64,000 nt of DNA from Nautilus pompilius (taxonomy: Eukaryota; Mollusca; Cephalopoda; Nautilida; Nautilidae). Positions within the stretch are counted from its first letter, which is position 1. Every line of letters starts with the position of its first letter. Of this stretch, positions 45,221-58,146 are shown piece by piece. The stretch lies in NCBI GenBank assembly GCA_018389105.1, contig JACATO010001426.1, positions 558,001 to 622,000 on the forward strand, given 5' to 3'. Under the pieces are notes generated by a model. The model was not told where the DNA came from, did no database searches, and worked only from the letters and a program-made list of their open reading frames with translations. The position numbers were made by a program, and so were the translations under genes.

Positions 45221-45666
45221 TTACATGTGAGTAACGTCCGAGTTTAAATTCAGTGTCACCGTCTTCTCTCTTGGAGTCAAAGCTAAATTCTTTAAGTTTA
45301 AACTTCGGGTTATGTTGTTGGATTGCAAACGAACGGATTCCACCTTTTCACATGTAGAATTCTTCTTTTTGGGCATGGAGAGCTCCAGTTTCTTCCAGAA
45401 CTTCTCTGCCCTTTTGTTTTCTTCTGCGCGTGGCCATTCCAGGTAGGTGATAGACTCGAAAATCGTCTTGAGGTTCTTGTCCAGGTCCAGCAGACCGGTG
45501 ACGTCGTGCAGCATGATAGGTATAATCCTATGGCGTAACTTCAGCATCTCCTGCTGCGCCACCTGGTATTCCATCCGAGTGAACTCGCTTTTCACGTAAG
45601 AAGGCGACAGCACCAGAATAGTCCTCCTGCTCTTCTCGACTGCACTGATAATGTTGTTTGCAATAG
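45221..45666 (-). CDS. EGF-TIR receptor exon 4: rest of TIR domain, tail and stop
   Basis: The acceptor ATTTTATTTAG|C continues the phase-1 frame. The exon encodes residues 274-421 and a TAA stop at 45223-45221. The TIR domain continues with IANNIISAVEKSRRTILVLS (helix B to strand C), SEFTRMEY, RIIPIML (strand D), then KFWKKL with box 3 FW at 363-364. After PKKK comes a 49-residue serine/asparagine-rich tail that I do not recognise. The 3' untranslated region probably crosses the (TAA)n array. On the minus strand an AATAAA lies at 44985-44980 and another at 44801-44796. Confidence 0.85.
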
Positions 45667-56200: not shown

Positions 56201-58146
56201 AAGATTGACATAGTAGCAGAATTGTCCCAGGAGCGCGTGGTCGGTGTCGATTTCGCCAAAAGGGACTTGTGGTTTCGATGGCTGATTGTTGGGGGCGAGC
56301 AGACTGTGGAAGACTTGGATATTTTTCTCCTGAATGTGGTATAGGACAATCTTTTCACATTATACTTTTGCATCATCGCTCTAGATTCCGTGCAAACCCG
56401 TAGGAGTTCCATGAAAAAACCCAATTGGTCACTTCTGTGGTCACGCGACACAGCTTCCTTTAAACGATCTCTATCATGTTACAGTCACCAAGCATGATCT
56501 TTGTTTGGCTCCGGTAAAATACGTCAACAGACAGCAACAAAGTAACATTTTGATTTACTCTCATTAGAGAAGCAAACCTGGCTCCAGTCTCGCCCTACTA
56601 GACTTTTTTGTGTGTAGATTAGAAGAGTTTAGCTGAATTCATACAGTTTGGTCAAAGATACTCGTCACAAACCTGCTGAAATTCCTTGATGGCGAGATAC
56701 TGCGGTTACCATGAGCCGGATTTGTGATGTGACTGTGATAAGTGCTTTAGCTCCCTCTGCCATGTCCTTCGTAAGCAAAACTGGTTTCTCCGTACCTCTT
56801 ACAAAGCCGGCTGATAACATTGTCTTGCACCAAGTTCAACAGCCACATCTGCCTGCCTACTCTTGGTCCGTAGAGGTGGCTACGCATCTTTACGCCATTC
56901 TCTCAACTTTCGGTAACTATTATGCCATCATTCGCAACAGGATCAAAGGCCAATTTAACATAAACTGACTCACGTCACATGCAGCACTGAAAATAAAATC
57001 TTCAAACGATTGAAACCATGAGTTGACAAAGAGTTAAACACCATGCGACTCCTTTTCCGAAACACCTGCAAAAGGGCGCACAAAATGCCTAACGCAAAAA
57101 TATCTATATACGTCGTTCAGTGTTTTATTGCCAAATACGTTCTTCTATTTCCTTAAACGGATGAAATGATTATTCTCGTAGTGGCGATAATTCCAGCTAT
57201 TGGTTTCTGAAGTATCAAAAATTGTGCTAATCTTGACAGAAACGTTCAGCTTTTTACATGTTTCGTATCCGTTCCATCTCCTTTTCGGTGCGAAAGCGGG
57301 GCCGAAAGTCACCATTATACTATTAACAGCCGGTAATAGAAAACCGGTTAATTAATTACGATTCTCTTATGTGTACAGAGAAAGGATAATGTAAAGTTAA
57401 AACAGCTATTTAATTTAGACTTTTTCGCAATTATCAAACAACGTTCGCGACGTGACATCCGTAACTTTGCTGCTGGGATGGGCAAGGACAGAGCTGCGCT
57501 TTCAAATGAGCTTCCACGGTGCGAATCTAGACCGGTCTGACGCACGCATCTGCTTTCCAGAATACTTTCCCTGTCGCGGGTTTCACGATGACCAGCTAAC
57601 AGAAACAAACAGCAAAGCCGGCGGGCGGCTCTCATACTTACTTTGTCGCAGCACGGGCTTCGGTTCGGTGCAGTTCGATTCCGGCGTGAAGTTCGGATGG
57701 CACGCGCAGTCTTCGTTGCCATCGCTGTTAATGAAACAGTTCCCAGCGCCGCAGTCCAATGGACAGTACTGCCCGCACAGCTCCCCTATCCAGTTTTTCT
57801 CGCAGACGCATTTAATCTCGTAGTCGCCGCTCTGGTTGCAGTACCCTCGATTACACCGGAGGCCGCCGCACAGCGTTTGGTTGGGATCGGCGGCAGTCAC
57901 CGCTGGCGAGCTGCTGTTGGATAGAGCGCGCCCGCACCTTTGGCCCGTGTAGCCCGCCGAGCAGGTACAGGTGTTTCGGCAGGTCTTGCGATCCATCTTG
58001 CACGTCCCGCCGTTAAAGCAGGCCGGCTCGCCGACGGACAGGGAACAGGAGTCGAACGCACAGAATACCGGCACGGGCTGATCGCCGGAGAGGACCCCGA
58101 GACCAGCTGCGAGAAATATCGACAAACCCGCGAGAGTTCCCCTCAT
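45221..58146 (-). CDS. EGF-like/TIR transmembrane receptor, four exons
   Basis: Joining 58146-57642, 48661-48491, 46573-46430 and 45666-45221 gives one open frame of 421 residues. Seen: a hydrophobic signal peptide (about 1-20), three EGF-like modules (29-71, 93-124, 128-159), a single transmembrane helix (about 181-205) followed by WKK, and a TIR domain (226-372). The TIR domain has box 1 FDAFVSY (230-236), box 2 RDFVPGE (267-273) and box 3 FW (363-364). A 49-residue tail follows. The ectodomain has Asn-X-Ser/Thr sites and no leucine-rich repeats. All introns are phase 1 and GT-AG, about 8980, 1917 and 763 bp. Family knowledge: TIR domains of this kind recruit MyD88-type adaptors at the plasma membrane and signal to NF-kB. 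Inference: a Toll-like signalling receptor whose sensor is EGF modules. Further phase 1-1 exons could hide in the first intron. Confidence 0.85.
46430..46573 (-). CDS. EGF-TIR receptor exon 3: TIR domain, N-terminal third
   Basis: A 144-bp (48-codon) phase 1-1 exon. The acceptor has a T-rich tract ending CCGCAG, and the donor is GAA A|GTAGGTACA. It encodes residues 226-273: KIFDAFVSY (box 1, strand A), EDETWV at the start of helix A, and VCVHFRDFVPGE (box 2 and BB loop). The BB-loop proline is P271, the position at which substitution inactivates vertebrate TLR4. The exon ends exactly after the BB loop and joins a matching phase-1 acceptor in exon 4. Confidence 0.85.
47732..47785 (+). CDS. Candidate first coding exon, 18 codons, antisense to receptor intron 2
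   Basis: AAGATGG opens MAEDSGNELLLSSEFSFQ, which runs in phase 0 directly into CAA|GTAAGTATA, a near-perfect donor. The acidic N-terminus resembles many cytosolic proteins. It lies inside the second intron of the EGF-TIR receptor gene on the opposite strand. A phase-0 acceptor at 53309 could follow (VFGKTLQCCVGLGHDF, then a stop after about 33 codons), but nothing proves the join. Confidence 0.25.
48491..48661 (-). CDS. EGF-TIR receptor exon 2: transmembrane exon
   Basis: A 171-bp (57-codon) exon with phase 1 at both ends. The acceptor is TTTAATTTCTAG and the donor G|GTTAGTAAA. In the frame set by exon 1 it encodes a basic juxtamembrane stretch, then about 24 hydrophobic residues rich in Val, Leu, Ile and Phe (about 181-205). 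Next come WKKRF and a short cytoplasmic linker ending in YEDD. Positive charges after the helix fit a type I orientation with the EGF modules outside. The exon was found by extending the frame from both neighbours. It is too short to stand out as a long ORF. Confidence 0.8.
50180..50222. repeat. (TA)n(TG)n compound microsatellite
   Basis: TATA units followed by GTGT and a TATG tail, inside the hAT relic. Confidence 0.9.
50400..51480 (-). pseudogene. hAT transposase C-terminal half, frameshifted
   Basis: Pieces in order: LPATKELHVDIPKTLLD, then an in-frame microsatellite encoding repeated YI. Next are YLDKSSKRKKEFKKFQEE, IFVGDVRKFYLEATNYIFVK, FPLMGDFLDDARVLDI, LPEEILAEIRADKQW and LSYPTLAHVMKGL. 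The hAT dimerisation signature NVNSERVFSLV follows in a shifted frame. Confidence 0.65.
51375..51396. repeat. (TA)n microsatellite inside the transposase frame
   Basis: TA repeats within the hAT coding remnant, reading as alternating Tyr and Ile on the minus strand. Confidence 0.85.
51654..52178 (-). pseudogene. hAT transposase N-terminal half (open part)
   Basis: 174 codons: WWTPQKYRPEHKDLYSF, a zinc-finger-like C-x2-C...H-x4-H segment (ARCTVCDSEF, IRRHEFSQKH), then FVTKHNLPLSDLDHAGALFK, KMFPDSKIAQKF and the catalytic lead FSLSTDGSND. The TAG stop after NDSG is a nonsense change, because the same frame continues NQLYPTVVRYFDEKVGHVV to about 51480. A 12-A run codes for KKKK near the start. 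Confidence 0.7.
53791..53902. repeat. Exact tandem duplication of 56 bp
   Basis: 53791-53846 and 53847-53902 are the same sequence, each containing a (CT)n tract and the string TTGCGGAAGTGCATGGGAGC. No differences were seen, so it is recent or maintained. Confidence 0.9.
54060..54093 (+). CDS. Weak candidate first exon, 11 codons
   Basis: ATGGCC opens MAKKGPTSCLQ and runs in phase 1 into AAG|GTAAGC, a strong donor. It lies in receptor intron 1 on the opposite strand. No downstream exon was found. Chance is a realistic alternative. Confidence 0.15.
54100..57641. other. Receptor intron 1, distal part: nothing else recognised
   Basis: AT-rich sequence with short open frames on both strands (for example 56194-56451 and 56711-56968), none recognisable. 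Confidence 0.4.
57642..58146 (-). CDS. EGF-TIR receptor exon 1: signal peptide and three EGF-like modules
   Basis: The start is the ATG at 58146, in a good context (G at -3) and followed at once by a hydrophobic signal peptide. The exon encodes residues 1-168 plus one base. Module 1 has eight cysteines (29, 34, 43, 49, 56, 60, 62, 71). Modules 2 and 3 have the classic six: C-x4-C-x4-C-x9-C-x-C-x8-C and C-x3-C-x4-C-x9-C-x-C-x9-C. The donor reads AAA|GTAAGTATG, a near-perfect match, and leaves phase 1. Without splicing the frame runs only 19 more codons to a stop. It is unusual that the signal peptide and all three modules sit in one exon, not one module per exon. This stretch is much richer in GC and CpG than its surroundings. 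Confidence 0.85.

Follow-up and report, generated by a model that had tools for sequence, protein, structure and literature searches.

A predicted EGF–TIR receptor gene of the Toll superfamily in Nautilus pompilius and its cluster of EGF-module relatives

A stretch of 64,000 nucleotides from Nautilus pompilius (contig JACATO010001426.1, positions 558,001 to 622,000; hereafter the window) contains, on its minus strand, a gene that we consider real. Its predicted product is an EGF–TIR receptor of type I topology that crosses the membrane once and belongs to the Toll superfamily. This gene, designated focal gene F, has four exons separated by three GT-AG introns (Table 1). When cut and joined at the predicted coordinates, the exons form one frame of 421 residues and a stop, with all introns in phase 1 (1,1,1), and the protein begins with a signal peptide, followed by three EGF-like modules, a membrane helix and a TIR domain. 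In a hydropathy scan of 19-residue segments (threshold mean 1.6), values of 1.6 or more occurred in exactly two regions, the N-terminus (segment start at residue 3) and residues 175-212 (starts 175-194).

The gene structure is supported by a second gene, paralogue A, which lies on the plus strand of this contig (C1355 in our numbering), 63 kb from the focal gene. Paralogue A was modelled by hand from tblastn hits and nearby GT-AG sites and codes for 806 residues. The two genes have in common the four-exon plan, the intron phases, the domain order and the presence of just two hydrophobic regions, and the proteins share 47% identity across 331 columns of their alignment. By part, identity is 42% over 45 residues of exon 2, 65% over 147 codons of the TIR domain and 58% over 109 residues of exon 4. 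The head of A differs in that 267 residues, 29% of them S, T or P, separate EGF1 from EGF2-EGF3. Because paralogue A keeps the same exon chain and protein, a chance splice chain in the focal gene is ruled out. An earlier, sequence-only reading of this DNA had proposed the single-frame chain of four exons, which the GT-AG introns, their phases and paralogue A bear out; the identical exon chain of A goes far towards resolving its doubt whether the EGF exon belongs to another gene.

The same doubt can be phrased as a wrong join, in which a secreted protein of three EGF modules (exon 1) and a separate transmembrane (TM)-TIR gene (exons 2-4) were fused by prediction. The 9-kb intron 1 does contain an open frame of 198 residues (window 51657-52250, minus strand), which is transposon-like by eye and has no Pfam match, and several members of the cluster described below look ectodomain-only, so units like exon 1 seem to stand alone. 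However, the corresponding units are joined in paralogue A with matching phase, exon 1 closes with a GTAAGT donor whereas cluster members B and D close with a stop after the module, and no in-frame methionine was found ahead of the helix in exon 2. We therefore regard a wrong join as very improbable. Directly past the focal stop codon lies a long ATA/TAA/AAT trinucleotide repeat (window 44995-45132).

The ectodomain is formed by three cysteine-rich modules. EGF1 has eight cysteines, two beyond the canonical EGF, and EGF2 and EGF3 have six each; EGF3 was missed by the scan pattern because its last loop is one residue longer. The three EGF-like modules reported earlier thus stand as modules, with the correction that the first is not a canonical EGF. 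An AlphaFold2 model of exon 1, built from five sequences, has one hairpin per module, and its best PDB match in Foldseek was Notch1 EGF 4-7 (E 7.6e-6, probability 1.00), with low TM-scores (template modelling scores) of 0.19 and 0.21; the likeness to EGF chains is a generic one. Taken together, the cysteine spacing, this Notch-EGF match of a weak model and paralogue A indicate that the focal protein carries EGF-like domains. Pfam detected no leucine-rich repeat (LRR) in the spliced protein and, among matches up to E 1, no immunoglobulin (Ig) domain. A crude LRR-like pattern was absent in 12 of 12 frame-by-stretch scans of the coding strand, covering the three introns and 5.9 kb upstream, which speaks against hidden LRR exons in these regions. 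The earlier view that EGF modules take the place of LRRs in the ectodomain agrees with these results.

The TIR domain was recognized by Pfam above cut-off (PF01582, residues 232-381, E 8.6e-24). Of the domain search proposed earlier for the 421-residue protein, the TIR part was successful, and the EGF part, which failed at Pfam cut-offs, is supported by cysteine spacing. TIR boxes 1, 2 and 3 are all intact in the spliced protein, as first read. Among solved structures, the focal TIR matched 24 sequences, mostly TLR and IL-1R-family TIRs; TLR1, TLR6, TLR2 and TLR10 lead and IL1RAP is behind (TLR1 2e-24, IL1RAP 6.5e-18). By these similarities, the focal TIR is Toll/TLR-like. It is under purifying selection: between A and the focal gene, the proportions of synonymous (pS) and nonsynonymous (pN) differences are 0.786 (saturated) and 0.233 over 147 TIR codons, and for the helix and juxtamembrane segment 0.994 and 0.380 over 45 codons. 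The BB-loop proline, which matters for MyD88 recruitment, is retained in both receptors (RDFVPGE in the focal protein, RDFTPGE in A).

TIR domains may also act as enzymes, and the focal TIR could consume nicotinamide adenine dinucleotide (NAD+), as SARM1 does, instead of serving as a scaffold. The alpha-C glutamate is indeed present (RME), but SARM1 is not among the 24 solved matches, and the focal protein has lost the W-C of the WCxxE context; we consider an enzymatic role extremely improbable.

Judging from its sequence, the focal protein is probably a receptor that signals through a TIR adaptor in the manner of a Toll receptor but senses through a different head. In this scheme, the EGF modules would bind a protein ligand or co-receptor, possibly a secreted EGF protein of the cluster; binding would bring two TIR tails together; and the paired tails would draw in MyD88 or another TIR adaptor, leading to NF-kB. 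Signalling by way of MyD88 and NF-kB is suggested by membership in the TLR family. If so, the focal locus would show a coupling of Toll signalling to a non-LRR sensor.

Several observations weigh against this interpretation. The EGF modules matched Pfam models below threshold (EGF_2, E 0.0057; EGF_Teneurin, E 0.029), so strict automatic annotation might miss them, and the confidence of the AlphaFold2 model of exon 1 is low (predicted local distance difference test score, pLDDT, 64.1; predicted template modelling score, pTM, 0.37). Constraint is weaker in EGF2-3 (pS 0.698, pN 0.437 over 67 codons) than in the TIR domain. In exon 4 of the focal gene (SEFTRMEYQ), the W-C pair before the alpha-C glutamate is lost, while it is retained in 9 of 10 aligned TIR rows, namely paralogue A and eight others, three of them near-identical. 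Because of this loss, signalling by the focal TIR may be altered and may differ from that of paralogue A. Finally, a ten-row TIR tree supported two of seven inner branches and left five open, without singling out the closest TLRs; placement of the focal TIR among TLRs from this tree was dropped, as too few branches were supported.

The lost W-C pair also bears on a different role, that of an inhibitory or decoy receptor that would use its TIR tail to tie up adaptors or partner receptors. SIGIRR is a receptor of this type, which dampens IL-1R/TLR signalling. Against such a role, boxes 1, 2 and 3 are intact and the TIR domain is under purifying selection. In favor of it, in addition to the W-C loss, the Aplysia EGF-TIR proteins are filed under putative adaptors, with function unknown, in PMC9334734. 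On balance, an inhibitory role appears unlikely, and a signalling receptor remains our preferred interpretation.

Proteins with this domain pairing have been catalogued in other molluscs. The Aplysia study has an 'EGF-TIR' category of two genes among TIR proteins of unknown function, and tables the Aplysia californica genes LOC101855416 and LOC101856027 as putative adaptors (PMC9334734). Like the focal protein, these combine EGF (IPR000742) and TIR (IPR000157) in one protein, a likeness drawn from the domain listing. For Crassostrea gigas, a figure legend names the category 'proteins with EGF and TIR domains' (Sci Rep 2015, PMC4346834), the same pairing as judged by the category name. The architecture is thus already known, and the focal gene is an additional EGF–TIR member. 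The sequence-only reading proposed a search for the same architecture in other molluscs, which these two records answer, and could not say whether this EGF combination had been functionally described. A search of the openly licensed literature, which most subscription journals lie outside, returned no functional study of EGF–TIR proteins. Gerdol et al. (2017) are said to be the source of the ecTIR-DC names that later papers use for conserved invertebrate TIR proteins.

Compared with better known systems, the focal protein has in common with canonical Toll/TLR proteins the signal peptide, the single TM helix and Toll-type TIR boxes 1-3, but their heads are made of LRRs, which it lacks. The IL-1R family and Hydra HyTRR also unite a single membrane pass, a non-LRR head and a TIR tail; their heads, however, are Ig-type, whereas the focal head is EGF and the focal TIR scores nearer TLR1. 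The HyTRR ectodomain is described as a likely Ig-like fold in PMC6321704.

We also searched the whole assembly (727.6 Mb, 2558 contigs) for related genes. Among the TIR matches listed, 16 in all, two are on contig C1355. With the full-length focal protein as query, 29 matches reached E 1 or lower: 18 on other contigs and 11 on C1355, where the focal gene and A have four each, E two and D one. The best match outside C1355 is a Toll-like, LRR-bearing frame on C5, with 41% identity over residues 176-392 (TM and TIR), and an EGF-like match was found on C417 (45% over residues 35-90, E 0.035). Of seven TIR loci sampled outside C1355, the LRR scan took in five (all except L004 and L005), and in each of the five a single open frame carries both LRRs and TIR; the two EGF–TIR genes differ from these in their heads and in a phase 1 intron that interrupts the TIR past box 2. 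Two TIR matches at C1475 60783-61559 (minus strand) each fall in an open frame of 1142 residues, and this locus is probably a twin-TIR Toll-like gene of the kind described in bivalves. Three nearly identical TIRs, on C1964 (L003, L005) and C1587 (L004), occur in LRR-TLR-like frames and reflect either recent duplication or unmerged haplotypes.

The first reading of the focal gene overlooked gene B in the same window and a cluster of seven members (A, B, D, E, F, G and H), with six 8-cysteine EGF modules within 184 kb. A pattern scan of 322 kb (C1355 420001-742000) of the 1.02-Mb contig revealed no 8-cysteine EGF1 copy beyond these six. The six occurrences compare with none in 40 first-order Markov simulations; the pattern was written after the members had been seen by tblastn, and the simulations test only against random origin. 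A genome search with B (E up to 10) placed all four matches, B, H, G and F, on C1355; it missed A and E and is not exhaustive, and its counts are lower bounds.

Four members look secreted. B (97 residues) and D (92 residues) stop directly after the module, which makes it less likely that they serve the receptors as alternative first exons, and in G and H, whose open frames may be incomplete, the module is followed by a stretch rich in S, T and P. B, D, G and H look secreted because each has a hydrophobic N-terminus and no later 19-residue segment above 1.21. Copy E has a three-EGF head that is 42% identical to the focal head over 43 residues of EGF1 and 41% over 102 residues of EGF2-3, but the reading frame changes between EGF1 and EGF2; E looks like a decayed copy, unless an assembly error or a missed intron is responsible. 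A relaxed tblastn search of the 322 kb (E up to 5), using the TM and TIR queries of both receptors, found no TM or TIR exons beyond those of A and F, and yielded 15 further weak matches with E 0.11 or more. One of these, downstream of E (C1355 653753-653902, plus strand, E 0.11, 26% identity), is a possible TM/TIR relic.

The soluble EGF proteins of the cluster may modulate signalling by the receptors; module sharing and linkage alone suggest these relatives as ligands, decoys or co-receptors. A stronger version is that the locus forms a self-contained system of two EGF–TIR receptors and soluble partners, in which secreted B, G and H (EGF1-type) and D (EGF2-type) would serve as ligands or decoys, with sensor and regulators derived from one module by local duplication. 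We offer this version tentatively and think it rather doubtful. If true, the Toll pathway would here have an input in which one module gave rise to both the sensor and its regulators. In the accessible parts of the literature on EGF-TIR, which was searched without aiming at such clusters, no receptor cluster with soluble relatives is reported. Mollusc immune catalogues count EGF–TIR proteins, and what these sense is not stated in the parts of the searched literature available; a complete gene, a conserved sister and soluble-looking relatives of the head provide a concrete candidate for a ligand or decoy.

Table 1. Location of the focal gene, its paralogue and the EGF relatives (window, position in the 64,000-nucleotide stretch; C1355, position in the contig)
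Feature	Location	Strand	Description	Basis
Focal exon 1	window 57642-58146	-	505 nt; encodes the signal peptide plus EGF1, EGF2 and EGF3; GT donor, phase 1	splice/frame, cysteine pattern, hydropathy
Focal EGF1	window 57934-58062 (C1355 616062-615934)	-	8-cysteine variant, C-x4-C-x8-C-x5-C-x6-C-x3-C-x-C-x8-C; common to 6 cluster members	cysteine pattern, pattern scan
Focal EGF2	window 57775-57870	-	canonical 6-cysteine spacing	cysteine pattern
Focal EGF3	window 57670-57765	-	six cysteines	translation; hairpin in predicted structure
Focal exon 2	window 48491-48661	-	171 nt, phase 1-1; predicted TM helix and basic juxtamembrane segment	splicing, hydropathy, paralogue A
Focal exon 3	window 46430-46573	-	144 nt, phase 1-1; N-terminal part of the TIR with box 1 (FDAFVSY) and box 2 (RDFVPGE)	splicing, Pfam
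Focal exon 4	window 45221-45666	-	446 nt including stop; remainder of the TIR with box 3 (FW), 49-residue tail	splicing, Pfam, paralogue A
Gene A exons	C1355 527058-528426, 531747-531911, 538647-538790, 539951-540693	+	phases 1,1,1	
A, 8-Cys EGF1	C1355 527151-527264	+		pattern scan
Gene B	window 12436-12729	+	97-residue open frame; signal-peptide-like start, one 8-Cys EGF1-type module, then stop	
B, 8-Cys EGF1	C1355 570580-570708 (window 12580-12708)	+		pattern scan
D module	C1355 632709-632605	-	EGF2-type module only	tblastn/cysteine pattern
Copy E (L025)	C1355 642978-643408	+	three-EGF head; frame change between EGF1 and EGF2	
E, 8-Cys EGF1	C1355 642978-643106	+		pattern scan
Gene G	C1355 459332-460144	-	271-residue open frame; EGF1-type module, then S/T/P-rich stretch	
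G, 8-Cys EGF1	C1355 459997-459878	-		pattern scan
Gene H	C1355 478710-479216	+	169-residue open frame; EGF1-type module, then S/T/P-rich stretch	
H, 8-Cys EGF1	C1355 478836-478955	+		pattern scan

Scans of the window for tRNAs and, at the gathering threshold, for Rfam families found nothing. Two transposase matches were identified, a hAT dimerisation region at 29381-29713 on the plus strand (PF05699, E 2.5e-10) and a Tc1/mariner-type N-terminus at 37246-37605 on the minus strand (PF01498, E 1.8e-8).

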